A stretch of 49,247 nt of DNA, from NCBI GenBank assembly GCA_016204145.1, contig JACQLK010000022.1, positions 1 through 49,247 of the forward strand. Direction: 5' to 3'. Every line of letters begins with the position of its first letter. Within the stretch, counting starts at the first letter, position 1. This DNA is from Candidatus Pacearchaeota archaeon (GTDB lineage: Archaea > Nanobdellota > Nanobdellia > Pacearchaeales > GW2011-AR1). The position numbers and the translations under genes are program-made. Positions 17,209 through 41,473 of the stretch are shown in pieces. The notes under the pieces were generated by a model that saw only the letters and a program-made list of their open reading frames with translations, was not told the DNA's origin and made no database searches.

Positions 17209-17406
17209 ATGGCGTTTGGAAGATTTTTTTGGTTTTTGATTTGCCTTGCGTTCGGAGGATATCTCATCAATTATTCGCTGCAATTTTATCCCATAGACGA
17301 AGTTTTTTCCGGAATGAACAAATACGCAATCCTCATCGCCGGAGCGCTTCTAATCCTCGGCGGAATTAACCGCCTTCTTGCGAGAAAACACGGCAATTCT
17401 GAATAA
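17209..17406 (+). CDS. Small two-TM membrane protein
   Basis: 65-aa hydrophobic ORF with two TM segments, directly upstream of the next gene. Confidence 0.55.
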   Translation: MAFGRFFWFLICLAFGGYLINYSLQFYPIDEVFSGMNKYAILIAGALLILGGINRLLARKHGNSE

Positions 17407-17434
17407 GGTTTATATATATAATTTCCATCTTTTT

Positions 17435-19336
17435 ATGATGAAAAAAAGGGGGAGAAGAGTTTATTTTTCCGGAGAAAGTCCGCTTAAAAAAAACCGCGGA
17501 CAACTCACTATTTTTATAATAATTGCGATTGCAATCGTTTCAGCAGCAGTGTTATTTTTTGCATTAAGGGAAAACATTTTCAACGCAATAATCGTTCCGA
17601 AAGACCTGCAGCCGGTTTACAACACATTTTTAAGTTGCATACAAGACAGCGCTTCCGTCGGAATAAACGTTCTCGGTTCGCAAGGCGGCTACATTCAGTT
17701 GCCGGAATTTTCTCCTGGAAGCTCTCACACTCCTTTTTCATCGCAATTGAATTTTTTGGGAAATCCGATTCCTTATTGGCATTATGTTTCCGGAAACAAT
17801 ATTGAAAGGACGCAAATTCCTTCCAAAACAATAATGCAGAATCAGCTCGGGGAATTTCTTGACAGCAGAATCAGGGGATGCCGATTTGACGAATATTATG
17901 ACGAGGGCTTTCAAATTTTCGTAGGGGAGCCGAAGACAAGCGTGACAATAATGGACGACAGCGTAGAATTTTCTGTTGACGCGGAAATGTCAATAAGCAG
18001 AGAAGATGAAACTGCGCTCGTAAAAAATCACAAGGTGACGATTGATTCGGAAATCGGAAACCTGTACGACTCCGCGGTTAAAATTTACGAGTACGAGCAG
18101 GACAATTTATTCCTTGAAAATTACGGAGTTGACGTTTTGCGGCTGTACGCTCCGGTCGACGGAGTTGAATTGAAATGCTCTCCTTTGGTTTGGAACGCAA
18201 ACGACGTTTTTGAAAAACTGAAAGAAGCGATAGAGTCAAACACTCTTGCAATAAAAACAAAAAGCGGATTGCTCTCTGCAAATGCGGGCGACAAATATTT
18301 CTTCCCGGGAATTTCCGTTCCGCACGACGTGAGATTTTTGAATTCAAGAAATTGGTCGAGCGCGTTCGAAGTGAGTCCTTCAGAGGGAGCAATTCTTTTG
18401 TCGACTCCGGTCGGAACCCAGCCCGGTTTAGGAGCATTGGGATTTTGCTATGTTCCGTATCATTTTGTTTACAGCATGAAATATCCGGTTCTCGTGCAGA
18501 TTTCAGGGAAAAAAGAAACATTCCAGTTTCCCGTTGCAGTAGTCATTCAAGGAAATGTTCCAAGAAAGGCGATGGAAAATTCCACCGCGATTCAGGTGGA
18601 TATTCCGGAATTGTGCAGCCAGAAAAACACTTTGGCAGAGGTTTCTGTTTTTGACGAGAATTTGAATCCGATAAACGCAAATGTTTCCTACTCGTGCGCC
18701 GGAACCGAATGCAGGATAGGAGAAACGTCGTCGGGAAAAGTTTCCGCAATGTTCCCGCAATGCGTCAACGGATTTGTTATTGCAACAGCGGATGGATTTG
18801 AAGAGACGAAACAGCTTTATTCCGTCGTTGAAAACGCAAACGTTAATATTTTCATGAATCAAATTTACGATAAGAACGTAAATTTGAAAATCGACGGAAA
18901 GGATTACGAAGGGCAGGCGACGATAACCTTTGCCTCTGAAGAGGGAAATTCAAGAACCGTCGTTTATCCGGAGCGAAAAACAGTCAAACTCTCGGAAGGG
19001 CAATACGAAGTTCAGGTTTATGTTTACAGGAATTCTTCGCTGACAATAGGCGCGAAAACCGTCGAGGAATGCGTCGACGTTCCTCAAACGGGAGTCGGCG
19101 GATTTTTCGGATTCAACAGGGAGAAATGCTTCAAGATTGACTTTCCGGCGGAGGTTGTTTCAAACGCGCTTGCCGGAGGAGGGAGTCAGAATTATTACGT
19201 TTTGGAATCAGAGCTTAAAAATTCAAACATCATTGAAATAAACGTAGACGGATTGCCTTTGCCGACGTCGATAGATCAGTTGCAACAAAATTATATTTTG
19301 CTTGAGGACAAGGGGTTGAAAATAAATTTCAGATAA
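17435..19336 (+). CDS. Large prepilin-like exported protein (class III-like signal, GQLTIFIIIAIAIVSAAVLFFAL)
   Basis: ORF 17378..19336; ATG at 17435 is likelier. N-terminal KKNRGQLTIFIIIAI helix parallels the 254..985 product, including 'C(I)...GGY...P.FS' after the TM. Confidence 0.78.
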   Translation: MMKKRGRRVYFSGESPLKKNRGQLTIFIIIAIAIVSAAVLFFALRENIFNAIIVPKDLQPVYNTFLSCIQDSASVGINVLGSQGGYIQLPEFSPGSSHTPFSSQLNFLGNPIPYWHYVSGNNIERTQIPSKTIMQNQLGEFLDSRIRGCRFDEYYDEGFQIFVGEPKTSVTIMDDSVEFSVDAEMSISREDETALVKNHKVTIDSEIGNLYDSAVKIYEYEQDNLFLENYGVDVLRLYAPVDGVELKCSPLVWNANDVFEKLKEAIESNTLAIKTKSGLLSANAGDKYFFPGISVPHDVRFLNSRNWSSAFEVSPSEGAILLSTPVGTQPGLGALGFCYVPYHFVYSMKYPVLVQISGKKETFQFPVAVVIQGNVPRKAMENSTAIQVDIPELCSQKNTLAEVSVFDENLNPINANVSYSCAGTECRIGETSSGKVSAMFPQCVNGFVIATADGFEETKQLYSVVENANVNIFMNQIYDKNVNLKIDGKDYEGQATITFASEEGNSRTVVYPERKTVKLSEGQYEVQVYVYRNSSLTIGAKTVEECVDVPQTGVGGFFGFNREKCFKIDFPAEVVSNALAGGGSQNYYVLESELKNSNIIEINVDGLPLPTSIDQLQQNYILLEDKGLKINFR

Positions 19337-19345
19337 AATGATAAG

Positions 19346-22300
19346 ATGAAAATTTTTAATTTTGCATGGATTTTTTTATTTGTAATAATCTTCGCGGGAT
19401 TTGCAAGCGCGGATTATTTTCTTTCAAGTCCTCAAATCACAATGCCCGGAAGCGCGTTCAATTACGGCGGAAATCTTCCTCTCGGTCCGGCGTTCAATTC
19501 AAATTCATGCGGCGCGGGGCAGGATTTCATAATTCAAGTCGCGCCGTTCGGATGTTCTCCAAGCGTTGTGAGAAGCGATTTGCTTGAAGAGCAGAATGTT
19601 CCCGTTTTCTGCCAATTGATGGCGACAAAGTTAAATCCCTTGATTAACGTGCAGTCGATTGATTCAATTTCTTTCACAGGAAATTATCCCAATGAAGTTG
19701 CAGGAATAGGATTTAATCCGGCAAGAGCGGCATTGAGTTCAGCAGGACAGACATTTTTGAATTCTCCCGTGACAAACAACATCGGCTATGCCGTGATTGT
19801 CTTGAAACAGCAGCAAAACGAATCGTCAATGCCCGAATTTGTTTCAGGAAACCTCACGGCAAACATAAGATACAACATACAAAACGCGTTCGGCGTCGGA
19901 GCGGCGAATTATTTTGTTCCGGAATTGACAGAGGAAGAATGGGCGCAGAGATACGCGCAATACGGTTTCATGAACGGAAGGGGTTTTGTGAAAGCGGACA
20001 ACGTAAACGCGGACAGCGCGACAATTTCGCTTTATCTCGACAAAACAAATCGTCTTTCAACATTTAATTTGAGAAAAGGGGAAACATCCGGAGACGCTTA
20101 TCTTCCCGGATTTTATTGCGCCGCTTCGCTGAATGTGAGATTGGAAGGGGTTGAAAATCCCAATACAAGAGCGAGAATTGAAATCAACGGGGAAATAATT
20201 CAGGCGGGAGTCGGAGAGAGATTTCTTAATAATGCGTGCGTTGTTTCATCACCGCCGCAAAAAAGAGGAATGAGCGAGAGCGTTGATATCTCTTGCAGAA
20301 CAGACAGCGGAAACGAAAGAATCAATTTGATTATCGCGCCGAGGATAAAATTAAACGTCGATAATACCGAGAAGGCGTTCGGCGTCGGAGATTACATCGG
20401 AGAGGCGGCTGACAAAAAAAGCATTTATCTCGGATACATCGGAACAAAAGGCGACAGCAGAGACAAAAAGGACTTGTTTGTTTATTTTATTTCAATGCCG
20501 CAGAGAAAAGACAAATTGTCAAACGATGAAATTTCCAGAACAAATACAATTGTAAATTTGATAAGATACAATAAAATCACGACGATTGGCGTCATAGATG
20601 TTCCGCTTAACGCTTTCAAGAATTTTGCAGGAGCGTCAAATCTTGTTTATGAATTTTTCAAGGGGAACGAGTTTGTTTATCTTACTTCCTCGGAAAACGA
20701 GTTTTCCTTTGGCGGAAAAAAAATAAAACTCGTTGATTTCGTCGACGGGCAGGATATTAATTTCCCGGACGCGCAAACATCCGAGAACTACAAAAAAGCG
20801 ATGAGCGATTACAGGGAAATAATAAACAAATATCCCGGCGAGAAAGAGCCGAACAGCCAGGAGGCGTTTGGCAAACTTGCTTTAATCGAGGCGATAAAAC
20901 TTGCAAGTTCTGTTGAGCAGAAGAAAACATTGAGAGAATTGTGCGACGAATTCAGCCAAAAATATCCCGACGCAAAAGCAGAAGCTGTTAATCATTGCGA
21001 CTCTGTGAGAATTTCAAGTTCGGAATCCGCGACGCGCAAATTGCTCATCAACGGAAACGTAAAAGAAATTTCTTTTGACGGAATTTATCAGCCGTCTTTG
21101 GAAGAGTACAGCGCGGAGGTAAAAGTCACTTATCCCGACGGAAGAACCTCGGATATTTTCACGCTGACAAAAGACCAGACAATTATCCTAAATGAAACCA
21201 AAAACGAGTACGTTCAGCTTGTTTCATTGAGCGACAATTACGCGACAATTCAAATAAATCTTGTTCCGACGACAATAAGCGAGGCGTATACCGCTCCTTT
21301 TATCGCAAGCGTTAAAAACATCAACAAGGGAATTCAGGAAACGTTCGGAAGCGGCTACACGTTTACTCTTACGCAGATTAACCTGAAAAAGGTCGCGAAG
21401 GTTTCAATAATTCCCAACATAAAAAATTCCGGGACAACCGGGAATTTCAGCTTTACGGTAGGGATTGAAAAAAGAGCGATACAACTTACCCCTGATCAAA
21501 TTAGAGAGAGAATCCAATCGCTTAACGAATCAATTTCAGAATGGCAGGGAACTTCGGAGAAAGTCGGACAGGTTGTCAAAGGGTTTAATGCCGCATGCCT
21601 TGCCGTCGGAACCGCAATCACAGTGAAAAATCTTTTCCAAGGATTTGACGGAAAGGCGATTGCAAGACAAGAGGTAATGAGAAGCCCCGGGGGATGGATT
21701 GATTCCTGCACGCAAAAAGTAAATGAAAAACAATTCAGCACCGTTGATTCTTGTTTGCTGAAATATTCAGACGATATCGAAAAGGACGTGGGAATTGTCG
21801 AGGGAATAATAAAAAATCAAAAGCCGATAACAAATGAAAATGCGAATATTCGTTTAGCGGAAATAAGAAATTCGCTCGGAGATAAAATAGAAAATCCCAA
21901 TAAAAAAGGAGAATTCATCGAGCTTTCGGAGAATTCCGACGCGGGAGAGGCGTTTACAAACGAGGGAATAAAAAACGGAAGAATCACTTTGAGTCAGGCA
22001 AGGGATTTGGAGCGCCTTAATTCGGAGTTGAATTCCGCAGCGAGCCAGCAGGATAAAGAACTTGCGCAAAGAAAAATTTATTCAATTCTTTCGCAGATAA
22101 AAGCGAATTCAGAACAGCTTTCGTTGTACAATTCAATTCAGAGCGAATTAAATAAAGCAAACATCGGGGAGATAGGCGTTGTCGCTTACGGCGGAAAAAA
22201 CGCGATTGAAGGAAGTTATACCGGCGGGATAATAAAAGGAGACAAAATAATCGGCGCGGGAATTTCCGACGGCAAAGATTATCCCGCGCAAGTTGTTGTT

Positions 22301-25300
22301 TACAACAACAAAAAATATCTTTTGACATTGCAGGGCGCGGGTTCTTCTTATGCCATAAACAAGGTTTATCAATACGACGGAGCCGATTCAAATAGAATTT
22401 ATATCAAGCCGGTTGAGCCGGGGGAAGAAAATACAATAAGGGGCGCGTTTTCAAAATTCACAAGATACGATTTAGGATCTTATCAAAATAATTTCATAAA
22501 TCCAAGAGTAAGATATTTTGAAACAGAGCCGTACAAAGGACTGCCCGCAATTGTTCCTTTTGATACGAAAGCCGGATGGTATGTCGCGACAAAGCAAATC
22601 GTCGGCGGGCTTGCGGGAAGCGTTTCAGGGCAGGGAGGAATACGGGCTTATGATGATTCCGGACGACTGACAAGTTTTTATTTGTGCAACGTCGGACAAA
22701 ACGGAAGGGAAGAGTTCAATTCAAATCTCGGCGACGACGTTTGCAGAAGTTTTAATCCGGGTGTTTCGCAACTTCAGGGAACTTTCCAGGGTTTGAGCGA
22801 GAGCGACACAAATCGGATAATGTCCCGTGCTGTGCAGGCGGTGCAGGAAGCATCGACGCAATACAAACCGAGTTTGAGCGCGAGCGGGACGGTAAAAGTG
22901 CTGAATGAATTCATTCCCGTCGGGGAGCCGTCGATAAACACGCCGGACATTCAATGCCAGGATTTTATGTCTCCGAAAGAATGCAATATTTTATTCAATG
23001 TTTGCGATCCTGTTGTTTGTCCCGCGAGCAGATGCAATCTCGGCGGAGCATATAATGTTCCGGATGTAATTCAGTCGGGAATAATCGGAAGCGTTGCATT
23101 ATGTTTGCCAAATGCGAGAGAAAACATCGCGGTCCCAATTTGTCTTTCAGGAGTGAAGGCGGGAATAGACAGTTTTGTTTCCGTGGAGAAAAATTATCGG
23201 GATTGTTTGCAGACAAATCTCGACACGGGGAAGACGGTGGGAATTTGCGACCAGATACACAGCGTTTATCTCTGCGATTTCTTTTGGAGTCAGGCGCAGC
23301 CGATGGCGAAAGTAATTGTTCCAAAAATATTTGAAAAAATTCTCGGGCAAACGGGAAGGGGCGGCGGAGAATATTTGGGAGTTGCAAGCGCATGGGAAAA
23401 TGCGGGAAGGTCGATTGATTACATGACGCAATATTACGGCGCGGCGTCGTTCGAGGCGTTCAGGACGGGAATAATAAAAGAAGTCGGAAACGCTGTTTGC
23501 AGAAATTTTGTATCTGCGGCTTATCCTTCGAACATGAAATTTTTTGATTCATTGATAGAACCACAGTCGCCGCCGCAATATACCGCGTGGTTTTCAGAGC
23601 AGGCATACGCGACGTCGACAAATCCTCCGACTTCAAGATATAAAGTATTTTATCATATTTACGCGGGAGAAAACACAGGACAGGCGGGAAAAAATGCCGG
23701 AGCGTTTTACAGCGTTTATTTGAAATCGCCGAGCGGAAGTTCGTTTTACCAGTATTCTCCGACGCTGAATGTCGCCTCGGGATTTATTTCTCCGGCGGAC
23801 TATGCGTCAGAGACAAAGGATTTCACAGCTCCTTCGGGATACAAGGAACTTTGCATAAACGTGAACGGACAGGAGAATTGCGGATTCAATCAGGTCTCAA
23901 CCGACTTTGGACTGAAATATCTTCAGGACTCGTATGCGCAGAGCCAAATAAATCAGACGAGCATTCAATCGGAAAAGGATTGCGTTTCGGGAACTCCGTT
24001 TAATTTGTATTCCCTTGCAAATCCAAACATTCAGGAAGGAGCGACTCAATTTGTAGACCCTGCAATTTACAATCAGCAAATCGTCCGCGTTTGCTCTACC
24101 GAGAATCCCGGGAAAGGAACCGATCCGCATTCGGGAACAGAGAACAGCAGATGGATTCCCGTCGGAAATTGCGAGCCAACGGGAAAGTTGAAATGTTATC
24201 TCGATACAAAGAGCATCGGCAGCGCGATACAAGGCGCGGGCTTGAGGAACGAAACGCTTCAAGAACTTTCGAGATATTATTCAACGCAATTGCAAAATCA
24301 GACGCAGTTTGATTTCAATTCCGAATTGGAAAAAATAATCAAACTTGACAACAGCGGAAAAATAAGCCACATCACTCCGAGTTTGATTTCAAAAGCTATT
24401 CTCAACTTTCAGAAAGCAAAGTTCCTTTTGCTCAGGGGAAACGCCTACGGAGAAATTGCAAAGGGATTGTTTGAGAAATTGAAATTGACCACAACGCCGA
24501 GCGGAACGACGGCAGCAGAAGGAGTTATTTGCACGCCTGCTCCAGGAATAACTACAACAACTCCTTCAACGTCGGGAACGGGAATATTTAACATTCAAAA
24601 CATTGCATACGAATATCCGGTTTTAACTTTAAATAATCCCGGGTTTTTCGGAGGAAAAGATTATTATTTCAAATATTCAAATCAAAACAAAAATTGGGAT
24701 TGGTATTGGTCAAATGACAACTCGCAATGGACTGTCGTTGACAGTGATAATCTGCCCGAAAGAGGAAGCACATTAAGAGGGTTGGATGTAGACCTTATTG
24801 TAAATTTAAGGGGAGTTTCTTATGATGATGGAGTTGTAAATATAATTTCCACTGCGAAGAGTTTGCAAAACGATTTGTCAACGGAAAATGTCAAATTTTC
24901 AAACAGTGACAATTTATTCACGGTTTCCCAGAAAGAAAGCGGATTGCCAAGCAGCATTTATCTGAAATATGAAAATAGCAAATGGTTTTGGACATACAGT
25001 TCAACACAAAACGACTTGATTGATTTGTCCGACTTCACAAATTCCAAACTTAGCGTTGTGACAAATTACAACAAGCAAATATTTGCAAGCATTGCTGGAA
25101 AAAGTTATGAGGAAGGAGTCAAGATGATTTTCAGCATTGATGTCAAGGAGAAAATTATTTCAACAACCAGTGAAAGTTTGCCGAGCAATTCTGAACTGTC
25201 GAAAATTCCGGACAGCGGAGTTATTTGCACGCCTGTTCCAGGAACAACTACAACAACTCCTTCAACTTCGGGAACGGGAACATTCAATATTCAAAATATT

Positions 25301-26731
25301 GCATATGAATATCCGATTTTAACTTTAAACAATCCCGGATTTTTTGGAGGACTGACGCAAAAAACATATTACTTCAAATATTCAAATCAGAACAACAACT
25401 GGGCGTGGTATTGGTCAAATGACAATTCGCAATGGACTTCTGTTGACAGCAGTAATTTACCGACGAGAGCCAGCAATTTAAGAGGATTGGATACGGATCT
25501 TATCACAAACTTAAGGGGGGTTTCTTACGAGGACGGAGTTGCACAAATAATTTCAACGGCAAACAGTTTGCAAAATGATTTGTCAACAGAAAATGTCAAA
25601 TTTTCATATAGTGATAATTTATTTACAATTAATCAAAAAGAAGGCGGACTACCAAACAGCATTTATCTGAAATATGAAAACAGCAAATGGTTCTGGACAT
25701 ACAGTTCAACGCAAAACGACTGGATTGATTTGTCAGATTTCGCGAATTCAAAATTGAGCGTCGTGACAAATTATAACAAACAAATATTTGCAAGCATTGC
25801 CGGAAAGAATTTTAGAGACGGAGTAAAAATTATTTTCAGCATTGACGTAAAACAAAAAATAGTTGGAGCTAGCGGCGCTTCTGGAAGTCAGAAGTTAAGC
25901 AACTTGAATCTCGGAACTTGCACAACACGACAAGAATGCCAGAAAGCAATCGGCAACGGAATAATAAAAATCGCAAGAGATGTAAAAAACGCGGCGAACA
26001 TTCCCGATATTGATTCAACAATAAAAGCAGAAGGAGTCGCGGAAAATTTTGAATGTCTTGTACTGCAAATAGCAATGCAGGAAAGTTCGCTGCAGCATTG
26101 CCAAAATATTCAGCAAAATTTGGACCCTGTTTACTGCGACGGAGCCAAGGACAAAGTAAAAACGTTGAGCACTGCAAATGAAAATAGTTTTGGGGTTATG
26201 CAAATTAACACAAATGTTCATGCGGTTCCCGCGCAATATTTTGAAGAAGGGGTTTATTATGCTTCTTATAATATTTTTATTAAAAGCTATCTTGCCTATG
26301 GGCAGGAAGGAATGGCATTTAGACCGACTGGGACGACTTATTCAGGATGGAAAGCCGCGATAAGAAGTTACAATGGATGGGGTTACGGCGGAGATAATAA
26401 TTATGTTGAAAAAATAACAACAGATAGAAAACTTGAAATTCAGCAAATGTTTTCAGACGTTTGCGGCGGCTCAAATGTTGCGCCGATAAAAACTTTCCCG
26501 CAAGTTCCCGCGCCTTGGAGCGTTCAATCCGCGCTTGATTCCATTCAAACAAAGACGGGAAAATATTCAAATAATAAAGAATTCATAGACCAATTGTATC
26601 AGGACGGGATTTTGACGCAACCGGAATATATTGAAATCAGCGGCGACGGGTTTTTTAATCTGGAGGAGGACATGAATTACGTGAAAAATATTTTGCAGAA
26701 TAAGTTGGTTGAGCAGAGGAAAGGAACTTAA
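19346..26731 (+). CDS. Giant (2461 aa) exported protein with tandem internal repeats and C-terminal lytic-transglycosylase/SLT-like domain
   Basis: Signal peptide; long beta-rich and Cys-rich regions; about 232-aa tandem duplication; C-terminal 'LVLQIAMQESSLQHC...SFGVMQINTNVHAV...AIRSYNGWGYGGDNNYVEKI'. Confidence 0.85.
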   Translation: MKIFNFAWIFLFVIIFAGFASADYFLSSPQITMPGSAFNYGGNLPLGPAFNSNSCGAGQDFIIQVAPFGCSPSVVRSDLLEEQNVPVFCQLMATKLNPLINVQSIDSISFTGNYPNEVAGIGFNPARAALSSAGQTFLNSPVTNNIGYAVIVLKQQQNESSMPEFVSGNLTANIRYNIQNAFGVGAANYFVPELTEEEWAQRYAQYGFMNGRGFVKADNVNADSATISLYLDKTNRLSTFNLRKGETSGDAYLPGFYCAASLNVRLEGVENPNTRARIEINGEIIQAGVGERFLNNACVVSSPPQKRGMSESVDISCRTDSGNERINLIIAPRIKLNVDNTEKAFGVGDYIGEAADKKSIYLGYIGTKGDSRDKKDLFVYFISMPQRKDKLSNDEISRTNTIVNLIRYNKITTIGVIDVPLNAFKNFAGASNLVYEFFKGNEFVYLTSSENEFSFGGKKIKLVDFVDGQDINFPDAQTSENYKKAMSDYREIINKYPGEKEPNSQEAFGKLALIEAIKLASSVEQKKTLRELCDEFSQKYPDAKAEAVNHCDSVRISSSESATRKLLINGNVKEISFDGIYQPSLEEYSAEVKVTYPDGRTSDIFTLTKDQTIILNETKNEYVQLVSLSDNYATIQINLVPTTISEAYTAPFIASVKNINKGIQETFGSGYTFTLTQINLKKVAKVSIIPNIKNSGTTGNFSFTVGIEKRAIQLTPDQIRERIQSLNESISEWQGTSEKVGQVVKGFNAACLAVGTAITVKNLFQGFDGKAIARQEVMRSPGGWIDSCTQKVNEKQFSTVDSCLLKYSDDIEKDVGIVEGIIKNQKPITNENANIRLAEIRNSLGDKIENPNKKGEFIELSENSDAGEAFTNEGIKNGRITLSQARDLERLNSELNSAASQQDKELAQRKIYSILSQIKANSEQLSLYNSIQSELNKANIGEIGVVAYGGKNAIEGSYTGGIIKGDKIIGAGISDGKDYPAQVVVYNNKKYLLTLQGAGSSYAINKVYQYDGADSNRIYIKPVEPGEENTIRGAFSKFTRYDLGSYQNNFINPRVRYFETEPYKGLPAIVPFDTKAGWYVATKQIVGGLAGSVSGQGGIRAYDDSGRLTSFYLCNVGQNGREEFNSNLGDDVCRSFNPGVSQLQGTFQGLSESDTNRIMSRAVQAVQEASTQYKPSLSASGTVKVLNEFIPVGEPSINTPDIQCQDFMSPKECNILFNVCDPVVCPASRCNLGGAYNVPDVIQSGIIGSVALCLPNARENIAVPICLSGVKAGIDSFVSVEKNYRDCLQTNLDTGKTVGICDQIHSVYLCDFFWSQAQPMAKVIVPKIFEKILGQTGRGGGEYLGVASAWENAGRSIDYMTQYYGAASFEAFRTGIIKEVGNAVCRNFVSAAYPSNMKFFDSLIEPQSPPQYTAWFSEQAYATSTNPPTSRYKVFYHIYAGENTGQAGKNAGAFYSVYLKSPSGSSFYQYSPTLNVASGFISPADYASETKDFTAPSGYKELCINVNGQENCGFNQVSTDFGLKYLQDSYAQSQINQTSIQSEKDCVSGTPFNLYSLANPNIQEGATQFVDPAIYNQQIVRVCSTENPGKGTDPHSGTENSRWIPVGNCEPTGKLKCYLDTKSIGSAIQGAGLRNETLQELSRYYSTQLQNQTQFDFNSELEKIIKLDNSGKISHITPSLISKAILNFQKAKFLLLRGNAYGEIAKGLFEKLKLTTTPSGTTAAEGVICTPAPGITTTTPSTSGTGIFNIQNIAYEYPVLTLNNPGFFGGKDYYFKYSNQNKNWDWYWSNDNSQWTVVDSDNLPERGSTLRGLDVDLIVNLRGVSYDDGVVNIISTAKSLQNDLSTENVKFSNSDNLFTVSQKESGLPSSIYLKYENSKWFWTYSSTQNDLIDLSDFTNSKLSVVTNYNKQIFASIAGKSYEEGVKMIFSIDVKEKIISTTSESLPSNSELSKIPDSGVICTPVPGTTTTTPSTSGTGTFNIQNIAYEYPILTLNNPGFFGGLTQKTYYFKYSNQNNNWAWYWSNDNSQWTSVDSSNLPTRASNLRGLDTDLITNLRGVSYEDGVAQIISTANSLQNDLSTENVKFSYSDNLFTINQKEGGLPNSIYLKYENSKWFWTYSSTQNDWIDLSDFANSKLSVVTNYNKQIFASIAGKNFRDGVKIIFSIDVKQKIVGASGASGSQKLSNLNLGTCTTRQECQKAIGNGIIKIARDVKNAANIPDIDSTIKAEGVAENFECLVLQIAMQESSLQHCQNIQQNLDPVYCDGAKDKVKTLSTANENSFGVMQINTNVHAVPAQYFEEGVYYASYNIFIKSYLAYGQEGMAFRPTGTTYSGWKAAIRSYNGWGYGGDNNYVEKITTDRKLEIQQMFSDVCGGSNVAPIKTFPQVPAPWSVQSALDSIQTKTGKYSNNKEFIDQLYQDGILTQPEYIEISGDGFFNLEEDMNYVKNILQNKLVEQRKGT
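24521..25870 (+). repeat. Tandem in-frame duplication (about 696-nt period) inside the giant SLT protein gene
   Basis: 'ggagttatttgcacgcctg' at 24521 and 25217. Both units encode GVICTP.PG.TTTTPSTSGTG.FNIQNIAYEYP.LTLNNPGFFGG...KLSVVTNYNKQIFASIAGK. Confidence 0.93.
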
Positions 26732-28546: not shown

Positions 28547-29476
28547 TCACTTCGCTCTCGCCTGAAGCTCTTTTTCCTTTTGTTTTATTTTTTCTTCGAG
28601 TTTTAATTTTTCAATCAATTCTTTGTAACGGTTTCTTATTGTGACTTCCGTTATTCCGGCGATGTCAGCGACTTCCCTTTGGGTTTTTTTCTCGTCGTTC
28701 ATCAATGCCGCGACGTACAAAGCGGCGGCGGAAATTCCCGCAGGGCCTCTTCCAGAAGTCAATTCAACGTCTTCCGCATTTTTCAAAATTTTCAGCGCGT
28801 CATTTTGCGTTTTCGGCGACAATTTTAAAACAGAGGAAAATCTCGCAATGTAATCCTTCGGAGAAGATTGTTTTACTTTTATCCCGAGTTTTCTTATTAT
28901 AAATCTGTAAGTTCTTCCGATCTCTTTTCTTTCAACGTCTGAAGCGGTTGCCATTTCGTCGAGAGTTCTTGGAATATTGTAACTTCTGCATGCGGTGTAC
29001 AAGCACGCGGCGATTACCGACTCCATGCTCCTCCCCCTGACCAAACCTCTTTGAAGAACATAATTGTAAACGCGCGCCGCCTCGTCTCTCACGACGTTCG
29101 GAAGATTCAAATAAGACGCGATGACTCTCAATTCCGCCATTGCAAGACGGAGATTTCTCTCAATGCTTGTTGAAACACGCTCCTGCCATTTTTTCAGGCG
29201 GAGGAATTTTCTTGTTTGTCCCGCTTCCAATTTGTAAATATCAGAGATTTCACCGACGTTTGTTGTAAGACCTTTGTCGAATTTTTGTATGCTTATCGGG
29301 GCGCCTCCGCGGCCTTTTTTTTCCGACTTGTCGAATTTTCCCGCCAAATCCACGCCGGTATCGACCATCTTCTCCTCGACGACGAGACCGCAGTCGTTGC
29401 AAATAATCTCTCCAAGATTTGCGTCATAAGTCAAATTTGCGCTTCCGCATTCGGGACATTTTTTTACAAAGGCCAT
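28547..29476 (-). CDS. tfb: Transcription initiation factor IIB (TFB)
   Basis: Zinc ribbon 'CPECGSANLTYDANLGEIICNDCGLVVEEKMVDTG' plus two cyclin-fold repeats with 'RKEIGRTYRFIIRKLGI'. Confidence 0.97.
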   Translation of the reverse strand: MAFVKKCPECGSANLTYDANLGEIICNDCGLVVEEKMVDTGVDLAGKFDKSEKKGRGGAPISIQKFDKGLTTNVGEISDIYKLEAGQTRKFLRLKKWQERVSTSIERNLRLAMAELRVIASYLNLPNVVRDEAARVYNYVLQRGLVRGRSMESVIAACLYTACRSYNIPRTLDEMATASDVERKEIGRTYRFIIRKLGIKVKQSSPKDYIARFSSVLKLSPKTQNDALKILKNAEDVELTSGRGPAGISAAALYVAALMNDEKKTQREVADIAGITEVTIRNRYKELIEKLKLEEKIKQKEKELQARAK

Positions 29477-33472: not shown

Positions 33473-36400
33473 ATGGGAGGGACTCGTTTAGCAAAAGCCA
33501 GAATAGCGGAGCTTAAGAAAAGGATAGCTCATGCAGAGCAAAAGAAAAAAGAATTTTCAGATTATTTGCGCGGATTGAAACAAAAATATCATCGCGGCGA
33601 AATTTCATATTCGTCTTTCCTTGAACATTTTTATCAAAAGCGAAACGGGCTTAATCTGAAGGAGTGGCTTCTTCATTTTGACGACTATATCAAGGATTGC
33701 AAAAAGGAAATAAGAAAAGAGAGAATAAAACTCCTTGGGAACTATTCTGTGTTTGCATTTTTGTCTTTAGTTTTTATTTCAATTTTCTTCTTGGCTTTTT
33801 CCAATATGAACATCGGCTTCACGGGCTTTGCAATTCAGGAAGGAGAAAATATTTCCGCAAATCAATCGATTTCAGAAGAAATAAACGGAGAGGTTCAAAA
33901 TGAAACGAGTCCTTCCCATCAGATTGGACAAGAACCTCTCCCGCCTTCTGAGAACATAACTGCAAACGAAAGTTCTATTTCAGGAAATTTCTCTTCGGGA
34001 AATTTAACAGAACAAAATGCGACAGAAATTAATCAAACGCAAATCAACGAAACGCAAAATATTTCCGCGGAAAACGAAACAATTCCGATTCAAAACATCA
34101 CAAATCAAACGACTCAAAACATTGCAGAACAGAATATAACGCAACAAAACGTCTCAATCGTTGAAGATGCCACAATAAACACGACACAAGTAACTCCAAA
34201 AATAAAACTTGGCGAGAAAGTAAAATGGAAAAAAACAATTTCCAGTAATGAAATCGGAAACGCCACAATAATTCTCCCGAAAAATTCAGAAAACATAACA
34301 ATAACAAAAATAAAAGAAAACAAAGAAGAAGACATAACTTCTTCAAGCTCCATAACGGGCGCGGTTGTCGGCGGTTCAAGAGAAAATTTCATTTTCCGAC
34401 TTTTAAAAAACATTTTTGGAAGAATAACGGGAAGAATCGTTGATGAAATCGCGAGGCAAAATGTAAGCGTTGAGGTTGAGATTGAAATTGACGAGATTCA
34501 AGCAGAATATGAAGTTGAATATGAGACGCCCGCGCCTTATTCTATTGAAGAAGACATTGCTTTTGGGAAAAGAGTAAAAATTTTCGGTCCCGACGCGGTT
34601 CATTATGAAAACGTTCTCGCTTTCACGAATATTTCTGAAAATTTGAATTTGAAAAATCCAAGCAAGATAAAAATAAAATGGATTGAGCAAAATATTTACA
34701 TAAATCCGGATTCTGTTCTTGACTCGGATGAAAACGGAATTTACGATTATGTCGAGTGGAATGTTCCGAGTTTGAGCGAGCAGACGTTTGAAATAATTGT
34801 AATCACGAAAGCCGAGCATCTTGATGAAAATTATAATTTTGTTTCCGACATTTATGAACAGGTTAAAGAACTGGATGGGATTTGGAGCGAAGAAATTCCA
34901 GATGCACATTATGTTCGCGTAACGTTTGAAAAAAATCTTACAAATGAAAATGATATAACAATTTATCCGCGAATTACAAGCGGAAATCCGACTATTGAGG
35001 TTTATGAGGAAAACGGAAATGATTTGGTTGCAGAATTTTCTTCGCTGAATGAAAACGAATACAATAAAGTTTTTTTGACGAATCTTATTTCTGAATCTCA
35101 AAATGTTTTCGATTTGAAAGTCGTTGGTGGAACAATTCAAATAGATTACATTGTTGACCCTGTAGAAGTCGGATTTTTTGACGATTTTGAAGGAACATTG
35201 GCAAAATGGGGAACGACGTCTTGGGTTGTGACTACAGCGCAATTTAAAAACGGCGCGCAGTCTCTGCAATCTGCAAACGGGCAGGAAGGAGACATCATCA
35301 CAGACCCGTTTGACACATCCAACGCAACTTCAATCAATATAAGTTTTTGGTTCAGAGACAACAATTTGGATGCGGGCGATATAGATTTTTATTTTTTTAA
35401 CGGCACAAGTTCCGCTTATGAGTTGCAGACAGAAACTCTTGAAACTGAAACGGCAGAAGATATTTGGACATTTAAAAGTTTCACAACTTCAAACAGCGAA
35501 TTCTTCATAAGCAATTTCAGCGTAAGATTCAATGCTAATTTGGGAAACGGAGAAAATTTCTGGGTTGATGACTTTTCAGTAAACAAGACGACTGTCGTCG
35601 TGGATTCAACATCTCCAGATGTCACAATAAACGTTCCACAGAACACGACATATCATGTGCATTTTGATTTGCCATTTAATTTCAATGTTTCTTTAAATGA
35701 AGCTGGAAATGCATTATATTCCCTTGACAATGGTTTTACAAATATTACAATGAACACAACAGACAATTTGAATTTTAATGCGACTCTTCTGGATTTGACT
35801 GAAGGAAGTTACACTTTCCAAGTTTATGCAAACGATACTGCTGGAAATGCAAATTATTCGGAAAGTGTTGTTTTTGATTTAGTCATGGATAATATGCTTG
35901 TCAACGGAACAACCGTTGCTCCAGACGGAATGCCGACAAATACCACTTTTGTAATTATAGATGAATCTTCTTCAAATGTTGTTTACAATGAAACAAACGA
36001 TACACACGAGACGTTGATTCCTTTGAACTCAACTTACACAATTGAAGTTCTTCCTTTGGAAATAGATTCCGTAGACAAAGTTGAATTTAATGACGTTAAT
36101 TTTTCTGAAATAAATGATACTGTCACAAGCATTGTTAAAATAAATGAAAACGAAACTCTTGGAAATTTCAGTACTGTATTTTCCGTAAGACCGCAGTTTG
36201 AAACATTTGAAAACGGAACCTTATTTTTTACCGCGAAAGCGAACGCTTTGTTCAGATGCGGAGAGTGGAATTACACTATGGAATCTTGCCAGGGGAACTG
36301 GAGTTTGTTCATGAACGATTTGATTCCAGGAGAAGAATACAATTTCACATTTTCCGGAACAAGGGGTTACGGAATAATAAACATTACAAATGCGACACAT

Positions 36401-39400
36401 CTTGACTCAAACAGGAGTTACATATCCGACATTTATGACTATGTAAAAGAATATGACGGCAATTGGTCTGAAATAATTCCCGACGGGCATTACGTTCGCG
36501 TCGTCTTTCAAGAAAATCTGACCTCGGGCAACGATATTACAATCGTGCCGAGAAATCTTTCCGGAGATGCGAGAGTTGAGGTTTATGAAAACGGGCAGGA
36601 CGTTTTGCTTTCGGAATTTTATCCTTTGATTGAAGGAGAATTAAATCAAATTCTTCTTACAAATCTTACAGGAACGCAAGATGTATTTGACTTGCGTGTT
36701 TCGGGGAACGATGTTGAATTTGATTACATCGTCGACCCAAACATCACTGTCATTGATACTCAATCCAAAGACGTTGGGATAACTCCGATTAACAGCACCG
36801 CATTTGTAATAGTCTGGAATAATATCTCCTCTGATGTTGCTTCAAACGGTTCATTCTTTAAAATAATGACAACAACAGGAAGCATTGTCCTTGATACTGT
36901 TAAAGTAGACGAAAATAATCCGAGAGTTTCCGTCGCCGCCCTCAATTCAACAACATTTGCCCTTGTTTATGTGAACGCATCAACAGCGGATGAATTAAGA
37001 ACAGTATGGACTACTGACGGAACGAAAGTTTTTGGTCCGACAACAGATGACGGCTCTATAGGGGTTGTTGGTTGGGATGTTTCTGCGACGGCGATAAATG
37101 AAACAGCTTATGTTTCCTGCTATGTTGACATGGGAACAGACGGAGATGGGGACGTTCACATAATAAATTATAATGCCGCATCGTCTGAAATAGGGCTTAA
37201 CGGAGACATTGACGCCAACCAAAATTATGCAAATCTTTTTGATTGCGCGACCATAAATTCAACGGCGTGGGCGGGAGTAACGTATGATGCAGTAGACGCC
37301 GATGTCGGATTGGCGGTTTATAATGACAGGGGAACTGCGATAACTGCGCTTACTCTCATAGATACAAGTGTAGGAACAGGCGGAGCGCAGGTTTCTGTTA
37401 CTGGATTGAATGGCGAGAATTTTGCAATGGTTTGGTTTACAAATCTGAGCACTGCAGACACAAACATAAGCGCAACGGTAAGAACTGCAAACAATGGCGT
37501 TGTAACGGCAAAAACAAGAATTGTAAACATGCCCGGAAATTGGACAAGAATTGATGCTGCAACAGTGGCGAATGACACGGGAGATTATCTTGTTCTCGGC
37601 TGGATTAATTTAACAACAAAAGGTGTTTTGGCTCAAACATTCAAACAAGATTTGACTCCCGCTTCCGGAATAATAACAATTGATACCGCCATGAACAGGG
37701 AATACCCTTTGTTTGACATAATTGGAAAAACAACCACGACATCTTTATGCAATGAGACATTTGCTATTGCCTATACAAATTTCACAAATTCTACTGTTGT
37801 AAAAACATATTGGATGAATGGAAGCATTTGGAATGGAGTTTGTCCTGCCCCCGCGGACAACACAAAACCCGCAATTTCAATTTTTTCTCCCGCAAACTTG
37901 ACAAACACGACGGATAATTTGATTGATATTCTCGCGACATATTCCGACGCCGGCGGGCTTTCTTCCGCGTGGTATAACAATGATACTCATGCCGTGGCAA
38001 ACAAATCTCTTGGAACCGTCGGTTCATTTACAAATATAACAAATCTGACTTGGGGCGAGGGCGGACACAATGTGACGGTTTATGTGAGCGACACTGCGGG
38101 AAATGAAAATTGGACTTCTGTAACATTTGAAGTTGATTCAATAAAGCCCGCGATAGAAATTGTTTCTCCTGCAATAAATAATTCAAACAGTAGCGATACG
38201 GCTCTTGATATTACTTATACTACATCCGATGCGCATCTGTTTAATTTTTGGTATGCAAATGATACGACAACGGGCGCAAACAAATCCCTTGGTGTCTTGG
38301 GAACATCATTTAACATCACGAATATAACTTGGGGCGAAGGAAAACATAATGTTACAATTTACGCAAATGATACTTTTGGAAACGTAAATCAAACAAGAAT
38401 CAGCTTCACGATTGATTCAACAAAACCTCTTGTAACAATAGCAAATCCGACGACAAACAATACAAACACAAGCGACAATCTTCTCGATATAAATTACATA
38501 CCGACGGACACTTTTACGCAAATAGATTCTGCATGGTATACCAACAATTCAGGAAATATAAACAAATCCCTTGGAACACTCGGCTCTTTGACAAATATTT
38601 CAAACATAACTTGGGGCGAAGGAAAACACAACGTTACAATATACACAAATGACACCGCCGGAAACGTGAATTTCACGACGATAAGTTTTACTGTTGACAC
38701 CGTAATCCCTGGAATTTCAATTGATTCCCCAAGCAACCTGACAAATTCAAGCAATCCTGGTCTTGATGTAAATTTCATAGCATCTGATTCCGGTTCCGGG
38801 TTGTTCAATTTTTGGTATGCAAACGACACCTATTCTGTTGCAAACAAATCCCTTGGTGTCTTGGGAACATCATTTAACATCACGAATATAACTTGGGGCG
38901 AAGGAAATCATAATGTAACGATCTGGGCAAATGATTCTGCTGGAAATTACAATTTTGCGTCTGTTACATTTGAAGTTGATTCAATAAAGCCCGCGATAGA
39001 AATTGTTTCTCCGACGGGGAACAACACAAACACAAGCGACACCGCTCTTGATGTTACTTACACGACTTCGGATTTGCATCTTTTCAACTTTTGGTATAAC
39101 AATGATACTCATGCCGCGGCAAACAAATCTCTCGGTGTCTTGGGAACTTCATTCAACATCACAAACATAACATGGGGCGAGGGAAAGCATAATGTCACAA
39201 TTTATTCAAACGACACGTTTGGAAATGTGAATTTCACGACGACAAGTTTCACAATAGATTCAACTCTTCCTTTGATAACAATAACAAATCCCGCAAGCAA
39301 TAACACAAACACAAGCGACAATGGTTTGGATGTAAATTATGTTGCAACCGACACTTTCACGCAAATCAGTTCGGCATGGTATACAAATAATTCTGGGAAC

Positions 39401-41473
39401 ATAAACAAATCTCTCGGTGTTTTGGGTTCTTTGACAAATATTTCAAACATAACATGGGGCGAAGGAAAACACAATGTAACGATTTACACAAACGATTCGG
39501 CAGGAAACGTGAATTTCACGACGATAAGTTTTACAATCGACACAATACAACCAACAATCTCCATCGCATCTCCGTCAAATAATTCAAACAGCAGCGATAC
39601 CGGTTTGGATGTTCTTTACATTCCAACAGACGCGGGAAGCGGTTTGTTTAACTTCTGGTACAACAACGACACTTATACTGCCGCAAATAAAAGTTTAGGT
39701 GTTTTAGGGACTTCATTTAATATCACAAATCTCACATGGGGCGAGGGAAAACATAATGTCACAATCTGGGCAAACGATTCTGCTGGAAATTACAATTTCG
39801 CGTCGATAAGTTTTACGATTGACACTATAAATCCTGATTTAAATATAACTTATCCGATTAACAACTCGGTTGTTTCCGATATTAATGCAGACATAAATTA
39901 CACTCGCTTGGATTCAGGAAGCGGTTTGTTTAATTGTTGGTATTCAAATGACACATATCTTGCAAATACAACGCTTTCAAATTGTGAAAATGTAACCGCG
40001 GTTATATGGGGGGAAGGGGCGCACAACGCCACAATTTGGGCGAATGATTCAAGTGGAAATTTAAACAAGACATCTGTGACTTTTACAATATCCCTAAATA
40101 ATCCCCCTGAGATAAGAAATATTTACAATGACACCGCGACCATAATTGCCGCCGCTTCCGGAATCAGTTCTGGACCTTTGAACACTTCATTGATAGTTAA
40201 CTTTTCTGTTTATGACGCTAACGGCGTTGCAAATATGGATAACTCAACAGCGACGGTAAATTTCTCAAAATCAGGCGAGGCATTGAGACAAAGTCCGACT
40301 TGCGATCAGGTTGAAGTAGGCACAAATGTCGCAAATTACAGTTGCAATGTAACAATGTCTTGGTATGACGGGGCGGGAACCTGGGCGGTTCAGGCGTTTA
40401 TTTCAGATTTGGACAGCAACGACGCTAAAAACAATTCCGCGAATTTCTCTGTTGGCGAGACAACAGGATTTGAATCCGGTTCTTTGACTTTTCCATTCTT
40501 ATCTCCGGGGTTAAAAAATCAAACCTCTGCTGTCGCGTTACGGCTGAACAATACAGGAAACAAGAACATGGCTGCAAACACGACGCAGGTAAACGCGACA
40601 AACCTTCGCGGAGAGATAACCTCTGCATTTGCCATATGGTCCGGAAACATTTCTACAAGTTGGGATTCAACAACGCTTGAGGCGTGCGACACAAGCGGCG
40701 GCGATGGAATAAGGGCAAATAATATGTCTTCCGGCAACTATGTAAATATCACCACTGCTAATTTGACAAAAGGAAATTATTTTGTCAATGACGGAAGCAC
40801 GGGACAGGAGGACTTTTATTTCTGCATAAAAACAGTCGGAGCTGAATTGACTTCGCAGCAATATTCCACTGCAAACGAAGGCGCGTGGACAATAAGAATC
40901 CTTCTCGCATTTGTCGCAATTCCAAGAAAGAGGAAAAAGAAAACTGAAAAAGACAAATTGCTCGAAACAATCTCTCTGCTTGTTGACGAATTCAAGGAAA
41001 AGCACCGATTAAGCAAAGAAGACACTATGAATCTTGTCATAAAAGAAATAAGAAAAAAATATAAAATAAACAGAAGTGAAATTCTTGAACTTTCTGAGGT
41101 TAAGAAAATTTCAATTCCCGCGACAATATTCTCAGAGAAAATGGGAATTTTGGAATCGCTTGTGAAATACATGAAGGAAAATCTTGAAATGAGCTACAAG
41201 GAAATTGCCGAGGAAATCAACAGGGATGAGAGGACAATTTGGACATCTTACAAAAACGCCGTCGAGAAACAAAAAGAAGTCATAGAAGAAACCGAAACAA
41301 ACATAACAATTCCCCTTTCAATTTTCAAAGACAGCAAATCCACAATACTTGAATCAATTGTTGTTTATTTGAAGGAAAACGGAATGAGATATTCGGAAAT
41401 CGGCGAATTGCTCAATCGGGACCAGAGAAACATATGGACTATTTACGACAGAGCCGCAAAGAAAAAAAGATAG
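33473..41473 (+). CDS. Giant (2666 aa) membrane-tethered surface protein: sequon-rich stalk, duplicated beta domains, eight Ig-like repeats, C-terminal tandem HTH-like repeats
   Basis: N-terminal basic coiled region plus TM (YSVFAFLSLVFISIFFLAF); eight 'WGEG.HN.T' repeats; C-terminal 'MSYKEIAEEINRDERTIWTSYKNA' and 'MRYSEIGELLNRDQRNIWTIYDRA'. Confidence 0.88.
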   Translation: MGGTRLAKARIAELKKRIAHAEQKKKEFSDYLRGLKQKYHRGEISYSSFLEHFYQKRNGLNLKEWLLHFDDYIKDCKKEIRKERIKLLGNYSVFAFLSLVFISIFFLAFSNMNIGFTGFAIQEGENISANQSISEEINGEVQNETSPSHQIGQEPLPPSENITANESSISGNFSSGNLTEQNATEINQTQINETQNISAENETIPIQNITNQTTQNIAEQNITQQNVSIVEDATINTTQVTPKIKLGEKVKWKKTISSNEIGNATIILPKNSENITITKIKENKEEDITSSSSITGAVVGGSRENFIFRLLKNIFGRITGRIVDEIARQNVSVEVEIEIDEIQAEYEVEYETPAPYSIEEDIAFGKRVKIFGPDAVHYENVLAFTNISENLNLKNPSKIKIKWIEQNIYINPDSVLDSDENGIYDYVEWNVPSLSEQTFEIIVITKAEHLDENYNFVSDIYEQVKELDGIWSEEIPDAHYVRVTFEKNLTNENDITIYPRITSGNPTIEVYEENGNDLVAEFSSLNENEYNKVFLTNLISESQNVFDLKVVGGTIQIDYIVDPVEVGFFDDFEGTLAKWGTTSWVVTTAQFKNGAQSLQSANGQEGDIITDPFDTSNATSINISFWFRDNNLDAGDIDFYFFNGTSSAYELQTETLETETAEDIWTFKSFTTSNSEFFISNFSVRFNANLGNGENFWVDDFSVNKTTVVVDSTSPDVTINVPQNTTYHVHFDLPFNFNVSLNEAGNALYSLDNGFTNITMNTTDNLNFNATLLDLTEGSYTFQVYANDTAGNANYSESVVFDLVMDNMLVNGTTVAPDGMPTNTTFVIIDESSSNVVYNETNDTHETLIPLNSTYTIEVLPLEIDSVDKVEFNDVNFSEINDTVTSIVKINENETLGNFSTVFSVRPQFETFENGTLFFTAKANALFRCGEWNYTMESCQGNWSLFMNDLIPGEEYNFTFSGTRGYGIINITNATHLDSNRSYISDIYDYVKEYDGNWSEIIPDGHYVRVVFQENLTSGNDITIVPRNLSGDARVEVYENGQDVLLSEFYPLIEGELNQILLTNLTGTQDVFDLRVSGNDVEFDYIVDPNITVIDTQSKDVGITPINSTAFVIVWNNISSDVASNGSFFKIMTTTGSIVLDTVKVDENNPRVSVAALNSTTFALVYVNASTADELRTVWTTDGTKVFGPTTDDGSIGVVGWDVSATAINETAYVSCYVDMGTDGDGDVHIINYNAASSEIGLNGDIDANQNYANLFDCATINSTAWAGVTYDAVDADVGLAVYNDRGTAITALTLIDTSVGTGGAQVSVTGLNGENFAMVWFTNLSTADTNISATVRTANNGVVTAKTRIVNMPGNWTRIDAATVANDTGDYLVLGWINLTTKGVLAQTFKQDLTPASGIITIDTAMNREYPLFDIIGKTTTTSLCNETFAIAYTNFTNSTVVKTYWMNGSIWNGVCPAPADNTKPAISIFSPANLTNTTDNLIDILATYSDAGGLSSAWYNNDTHAVANKSLGTVGSFTNITNLTWGEGGHNVTVYVSDTAGNENWTSVTFEVDSIKPAIEIVSPAINNSNSSDTALDITYTTSDAHLFNFWYANDTTTGANKSLGVLGTSFNITNITWGEGKHNVTIYANDTFGNVNQTRISFTIDSTKPLVTIANPTTNNTNTSDNLLDINYIPTDTFTQIDSAWYTNNSGNINKSLGTLGSLTNISNITWGEGKHNVTIYTNDTAGNVNFTTISFTVDTVIPGISIDSPSNLTNSSNPGLDVNFIASDSGSGLFNFWYANDTYSVANKSLGVLGTSFNITNITWGEGNHNVTIWANDSAGNYNFASVTFEVDSIKPAIEIVSPTGNNTNTSDTALDVTYTTSDLHLFNFWYNNDTHAAANKSLGVLGTSFNITNITWGEGKHNVTIYSNDTFGNVNFTTTSFTIDSTLPLITITNPASNNTNTSDNGLDVNYVATDTFTQISSAWYTNNSGNINKSLGVLGSLTNISNITWGEGKHNVTIYTNDSAGNVNFTTISFTIDTIQPTISIASPSNNSNSSDTGLDVLYIPTDAGSGLFNFWYNNDTYTAANKSLGVLGTSFNITNLTWGEGKHNVTIWANDSAGNYNFASISFTIDTINPDLNITYPINNSVVSDINADINYTRLDSGSGLFNCWYSNDTYLANTTLSNCENVTAVIWGEGAHNATIWANDSSGNLNKTSVTFTISLNNPPEIRNIYNDTATIIAAASGISSGPLNTSLIVNFSVYDANGVANMDNSTATVNFSKSGEALRQSPTCDQVEVGTNVANYSCNVTMSWYDGAGTWAVQAFISDLDSNDAKNNSANFSVGETTGFESGSLTFPFLSPGLKNQTSAVALRLNNTGNKNMAANTTQVNATNLRGEITSAFAIWSGNISTSWDSTTLEACDTSGGDGIRANNMSSGNYVNITTANLTKGNYFVNDGSTGQEDFYFCIKTVGAELTSQQYSTANEGAWTIRILLAFVAIPRKRKKKTEKDKLLETISLLVDEFKEKHRLSKEDTMNLVIKEIRKKYKINRSEILELSEVKKISIPATIFSEKMGILESLVKYMKENLEMSYKEIAEEINRDERTIWTSYKNAVEKQKEVIEETETNITIPLSIFKDSKSTILESIVVYLKENGMRYSEIGELLNRDQRNIWTIYDRAAKKKR
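37859..40100 (+). repeat. Eight tandem Ig-like coding repeats, with a duplicated three-repeat super-unit (843-nt period)
   Basis: Repeats 2-4 and 5-7 share an order (HLFNFWY / FTQI.SAWYTNNSGN / GSGLFNFWY...GNYNFAS). 'acatttgaagttgattcaataaagcccgcgatagaaattgtttctcc' at 38123 and, with one mismatch or none, at 38966. Confidence 0.9.

Follow-up and report, generated by a model that had tools for sequence, protein, structure and literature searches.

A giant, predicted secreted protein of Pacearchaeota with a conserved core and an exchanged tail, ending in a divergent lytic-transglycosylase-like domain

Large murein-transglycosylase proteins of the archaea considered here have already been published as fam00969 (Castelle 2021, PMC8204110). 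In the available part of that account they are extracellular, of the SLT type and up to 3000 aa in size, and an action on bacterial walls is proposed for them; the transglycosylase alone is described. Archaeal peptidoglycan hydrolases can kill bacteria, according to the accessible text of Strock et al. 2025 (PMC12352652), in which these enzymes are prominent and diverse in Nanoarchaeota. That set consists of secreted archaeal proteins with bacterial-type catalytic domains, whose patchy spread was read as an arms race; a known wall-binding domain was required, and the proteins described there in detail are haloarchaeal M23 enzymes. Such enzymes were also discussed by Vigneron et al. 2022 (PMC9723730) and in studies of an oxygen-deficient zone (PMC10936187) and of vent chimneys (PMC11537232), the last of which, in the part available, states that chimney Pacearchaeota lack such an enzyme. 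As regards the domain itself, the GH23/Pfam SLT enzymes (MltC, MltE, Slt70) and goose-type lysozyme have the E-S, G-x-M-Q and Y-N motifs and profile matches in common with the protein treated below. Bacterial polymorphic weapons consist of a constant carrier and a variable enzymatic tip.

The stretch of DNA analysed here (the window) comprises 49,247 nucleotides of a contig from Candidatus Pacearchaeota archaeon (JACQLK010000022.1). An open frame of the + strand at 19346-26731 (ATG at 19346, the stop ending at 26731) encodes a protein of 2461 aa. The original prediction, which placed a lytic-transglycosylase-like domain near the end of a secreted archaeal protein, had claimed this frame, and it is real, being open over its full length. 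The features of the gene and its neighbours are as follows:

17435..19336, + strand: partner gene, about 633 aa (ORF 17378-19336, likely start about 17435), ending 9 bp before the giant gene
19346..19411, + strand: predicted Sec-type signal peptide, residues 1-22 (FAGFASA/DYF boundary), from sequence and hydrophobicity
19346..24481, + strand: Cys-rich conserved core, residues 1-1712, in 133/138 family genomes, 36-46% mean column identity
21188..21208, + strand: internal insertion slot, core residues about 615-621, without SLT in the window; SLT inserted in L126, L075 and L080
24587..25177, + strand: linker repeat 1, residues 1748-1944, sharing 81.5% identity with repeat 2 across 200 columns
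25283..25882, + strand: linker repeat 2, residues 1980-2179, from comparison with repeat 1
25934..26464, + strand: SLT/GH23 lytic-transglycosylase-like domain, residues 2197-2373, from homologue searches, profiles, hhalign and a confident AlphaFold model
26081..26083, + strand: codon GAA of the predicted catalytic Glu, E2246, invariant in 33/33 domains and aligned by hhalign with the Glu of the canonical group
26192..26203, + strand: G-V-M-Q motif, residues 2283-2286, Gly invariant, M and Q above 90%
26369..26377, + strand: Y-N-G motif, residues 2342-2344, Tyr invariant, N and G above 90%
28547..29476, - strand: TFB gene, syntenic downstream neighbour (Pfam TFIIB, 8.9e-48)

Within the giant protein, no hydrophobic segment other than residues 1-22 exceeds the cut-off. 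Read by eye, these residues form a Sec-type N-terminal signal, by which the protein is predicted to be exported, in agreement with its being called secreted at the outset. Conservation runs from residue 1 to about 1712, and the sequence beyond is a variable tail. Many Cys are invariant in the core alignments, and the core is probably a disulfide-rich body of about 1700 residues. It found no match in Pfam, in the PDB profile search or by Foldseek. Pfam matches to GH101_N and Beta_lactamase3 in the giant protein were weak, lay below the family cut-offs and were discarded.

The whole-protein search found a homologue in 133 of the 138 genomes of the same GTDB family, and the core was present in 117 of 280 genomes of a class-level sample, mostly within ORFs near 2000 aa. 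Most of the closest relatives that bear a name are Candidatus Pacearchaeota or Nanoarchaeota. The clades and the giant size agree with fam00969 (PMC8204110), whose distribution is in Pacearchaeota/Woesearchaeota, and the giant protein very probably belongs to the same family, as judged from the available description of that family rather than from its sequences. TFB homologues lie downstream in most orthologue loci and are about 85-95% identical among those listed. Since the gene is found in 133/138 genomes of the family, with conserved synteny to TFB, bacterial contamination, against which the flanking genes had been cited from the start, is excluded. The contig JAHYJW010000006.1, titled Patescibacteria group bacterium, has a copy of the core with 47% identity next to a TFB gene and is probably mislabelled or from a mixed bin.

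As a single sequence, the SLT domain of the window gave no match in Pfam, NCBIfam or PDB searches. Used as a query, it matched domains at the same position in the tails of Pacearchaeota relatives (44-46% identity, E down to 3e-36), and the iterated HMM search brought together 34-35 aligned copies, conservation being scored on a 33-row alignment. The profile of these 33 domains matched 287 PDB sequences at E <= 0.01. The matches listed, 60 of the 287, consist of lysozymes and lytic transglycosylases, EtgA among the latter; the best is lytic transglycosylase C (MltC; 9vi7, E 1.1e-10), and MltE and Slt70 were also matched. Pfam SLT was reached at E <= 0.01 by 23/33 domains, the window copy lying below detection. 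The set was split into a window-type and a canonical sub-group as a safeguard against circularity. The canonical profile alone matched MltC (3e-17), MltE (9e-11) and Slt70 (1.6e-10), and the window-type profile alone had goose-type lysozymes as its top matches, at marginal values (E 0.02-0.2). The two sub-groups were aligned to each other by hhalign with E 2.4e-15 and Prob 98.5, the Glu and the GxMQI coinciding. The single window sequence scores nothing, and the SLT identity is settled because the homologue alignments match MltC, MltE and Slt70. Residues 2197-2373, approximately, are a divergent GH23/SLT lytic-transglycosylase domain by profile-level homology. The SLT/goose-lysozyme-like reading from which the analysis started is supported by these matches together with the invariant Glu.

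Only three columns are invariant in the 33 aligned domains, namely those of E2246, of the GxMQ Gly and of the YNG Tyr. As the active-site columns are the sole invariants among copies so divergent, it is the active site, and not a scaffold, that is under selection. The motif positions proposed beforehand (the E2246 codon at 26081, GVMQ from 26192, YN from 26369) proved correct, the three motifs being no mere chance resemblance, and the candidate Glu, on whose conservation among orthologues the original prediction had been made to depend, is kept in every one of the 33. The third motif, N-x-x-G, is altered in the window copy, which reads FEEGVYYA against FEENVKYG in its neighbours; only the canonical sub-group has an invariant N and an invariant G there, and the motif is variable in the window-type sub-group. 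This motif is accessory in GH23/SLT and is not strictly required. Its alteration leaves some doubt about the activity predicted for the window copy.

The AlphaFold model of the SLT stretch is helical, with a block-mean pLDDT mostly above 90. Among the matches that Foldseek listed for the tail model in PDB and viral structures there was no lysozyme, and no match at E <= 0.001 was obtained with either the tail model (PDB, viral structures) or the core model (PDB). Since Foldseek gave no lysozyme, the assignment of a lysozyme-like fold rests on the sequence profiles: the expected lysozyme-like domain was borne out by the GH23/SLT profiles and not by Foldseek on the AlphaFold tail. Matches to frataxin-like folds probably reflect the linker repeats.

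These repeats (24587-25882, about 200 aa each) are, from their sequences, a recent duplication. The AlphaFold model, whose confidence is low to moderate here, gives them a small alpha-beta fold. They may possibly bind the wall; a known wall-binding domain was not found in the giant protein by Pfam.

The tail varies from one relative to another. A census covered 74 relatives with a complete C-terminus, chosen by core similarity alone and leaning to near relatives. SLT was recognised in 25 of them, an NlpC-like domain in 7, DUF2272 in 2, a trypsin-like domain in 1 and nothing in 39; 34/74 carry some type of peptidoglycan hydrolase in the tail, these hydrolase counts being lower bounds. One of the 25 SLT-bearing relatives also carries Amidase_3 and M23. 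Searched with Pfam, orthologue tails contained SLT in many cases and also Amidase_3, Peptidase_M23 and DUF2272. Examples are a tail with Amidase_3 (L110, 3.1e-40), a protein combining Amidase_3 (7e-24), M23 (6e-9) and an SLT-like domain (L079) and another combining SLT with DUF2272 (L076). An NlpC/P60-like domain, weak in Pfam, recurs in tails, with Cys and His both kept in 8 and both lost in 4 of 12 copies. In three relatives (L126, L075, L080) the SLT domain lies inside the core near residue 618 rather than at the C-terminus, which makes this a second slot. Ankyrin repeats were met in the tails of two orthologues (strong in L114:878-3862, weak in L083), and a trypsin-like domain in L141. An SLT ORF beside the core in L181 was considered as part of a split protein; its start resembles the core end, there may be a frameshift, and it was left uncounted.

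On a core tree (FastTree, 88 rows, a set enriched in SLT carriers), 19 changes are required to account for the presence of SLT, and well-supported branches force no fewer than 14 of these. All tail labels taken together need 26 changes against a shuffled mean of 38, so that the labels are clustered, yet often changing. Strongly supported sister pairs are among the SLT changes. The window protein bears SLT whereas its nearest relative (L099) has no recognised tail hydrolase, and SLT stands against DUF2272 in the pair L091/L119. Lineages keep the core and repeatedly exchange the tail enzyme. The combination of a conserved core with an exchangeable tail is the main feature, and it was missing from the original prediction.

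Of 85 orthologue loci that could be tested, 72 have a homologue of the partner gene as the immediate upstream neighbour in the same orientation, the two frames frequently sharing 4 bases. At its N-terminus the partner has RGQLTIFIIIAIAIV, a membrane/pilin-like anchor, and the N-termini of its homologues are of the K/R-G/A-Q-x-T-I-F type; the pilin-like character is a reading of the sequence. Pfam assigned the partner to no family and detected no class III signal there.

Three further proteins with SLT domains, separate from the giant protein, were observed. The same genome encodes a stand-alone SLT protein of 318 aa (L223:4071-5027, G000:C28; 8e-21) with a Tat-like signal, and a secreted SLT protein of 451 aa with two LysM stretches (L222:2246-3601, G000:C5), the latter divergent from an adjoining gene that resembles an archaeal type IV pilus/secretion ATPase. 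A separate SLT protein of another genome (L093:1393-4845, G038) has CarboxypepD_reg-like and weak reprolysin-like matches. The window also holds a second giant protein (33473-41473, + strand, 2666 aa) with Big_13, a bacterial Ig-like domain, in 9 stretches and with OmpL47-type domains; by these it looks like an adhesin, and a match to Sigma70_r4_2 at its C-terminal end is perhaps spurious.

Unlike the GH23/SLT enzymes, the window domain is fused to an archaeal core of about 1700 aa, stays below the Pfam threshold and has its third motif altered. From the bacterial polymorphic weapons the giant protein differs in that its core has no detected homology to such carriers, although here too the carrier is conserved and the C-terminal enzymatic domain exchanged; an archaeal producer, moreover, would need no immunity gene against murein hydrolases. 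The secreted archaeal hydrolases of Strock et al. (PMC12352652), as far as their description is available, differ in the required wall-binding domain. The account of fam00969 (PMC8204110), in its accessible text, covers neither the swapping of tips nor the internal slot or the partner gene. In the accessible text of the published accounts, an exchange of wall-cutting chemistry on one carrier, the internal slot and the partner gene were not found, and supplements or other papers may hold them. The window protein thus falls into an already reported kind, and tip exchange on a conserved carrier appears to be the new part.

The giant protein is probably a tool, secreted or at the cell surface, that is directed against bacterial peptidoglycan and acts through an exchangeable tip. 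A Sec-exported, disulfide-rich protein would probably have its body of about 1700 residues on the archaeal cell surface, alongside the membrane-anchored product of the upstream gene, and this partner would hold the carrier there. The C-terminal tip, carried on the repeated linker, would cut peptidoglycan; in the window, the GH23/SLT tip would use E2246 to break the MurNAc-beta-1,4-GlcNAc linkage in bacterial peptidoglycan. Both the enzymatic activity and the substrate of the tip are thus predicted ones. To our knowledge archaea make no murein, so the target would be a neighbouring bacterium, be it host, prey or competitor. Peptidoglycan is the favoured substrate on two grounds: one carrier bears several unrelated families of murein hydrolases at the same position, and archaeal murein is lacking. 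An exchange of tips with a constant body would be expected if targets differ or change. Three roles had been offered originally: attack on a bacterial or host wall, domestication for surface polysaccharide, and a structural role; the attack on bacterial walls is now favoured, as the same core occurs with Amidase_3, M23, NlpC/P60-like and DUF2272 domains. The 39/74 relatives with no recognised tail hydrolase are a counter-point to wall cutting as a universal job of the core.

Exchange of the tip is explained less well by three other readings. It is unlikely that the SLT domain and its substitutes digest the peptidoglycan debris of dead bacteria as food, with no live target. Very small genomes (about 0.4-1.6 Mb among the listed relatives) are expected to scavenge, and dead-bacterial peptidoglycan was proposed as an amino-acid source of Pacearchaeota in the available part of the chimney study (PMC11537232). 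However, a giant surface-type protein of about 2000 aa with a fixed anchored partner and fast tip exchange would be oddly built for digestion, a task for which a small lysozyme, if secreted, would be enough, and the genome already has two small SLT proteins. It is quite improbable that the domain trims the glycan or pseudomurein of the archaeon itself or of an archaeal host instead of bacterial murein. Surface polysaccharides do occur in archaea, and all DPANN archaea cultivated to date need and grow on other archaea, as stated in the accessible text of PMC11291902. Yet remodelling of its own surface predicts no exchange of chemistry between sister lineages. Characterised members of Amidase_3, M23 and NlpC/P60-like, the alternatives found on the same core, act on D-amino-acid-containing murein peptides. 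A catalytically inactive SLT domain, serving as a glycan-binding or structural cap, is the least probable reading, for although the third motif is changed and the score below Pfam detection in the window copy, the Glu, the GxMQ Gly and the Tyr alone are invariant among 33 divergent copies.

With attack on the bacterial wall as the preferred reading, a wider proposal is offered tentatively, at somewhat less than even chances: the anchored partner and the Cys-rich carrier may form a near-universal surface machine of Pacearchaeota with two fixed slots for swapped wall-cutters, a cross-domain weapon or entry device against bacteria that would set the host range. For the question of Pacearchaeota hosts, a near-universal giant protein with several unrelated peptidoglycan-hydrolase tips speaks more strongly for bacterial partners than a single lysozyme domain does. 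The swapped wall-cutting tips point to bacteria as hosts or prey, and the tip enzymes provide a testable handle on whether the type of tip predicts the host.
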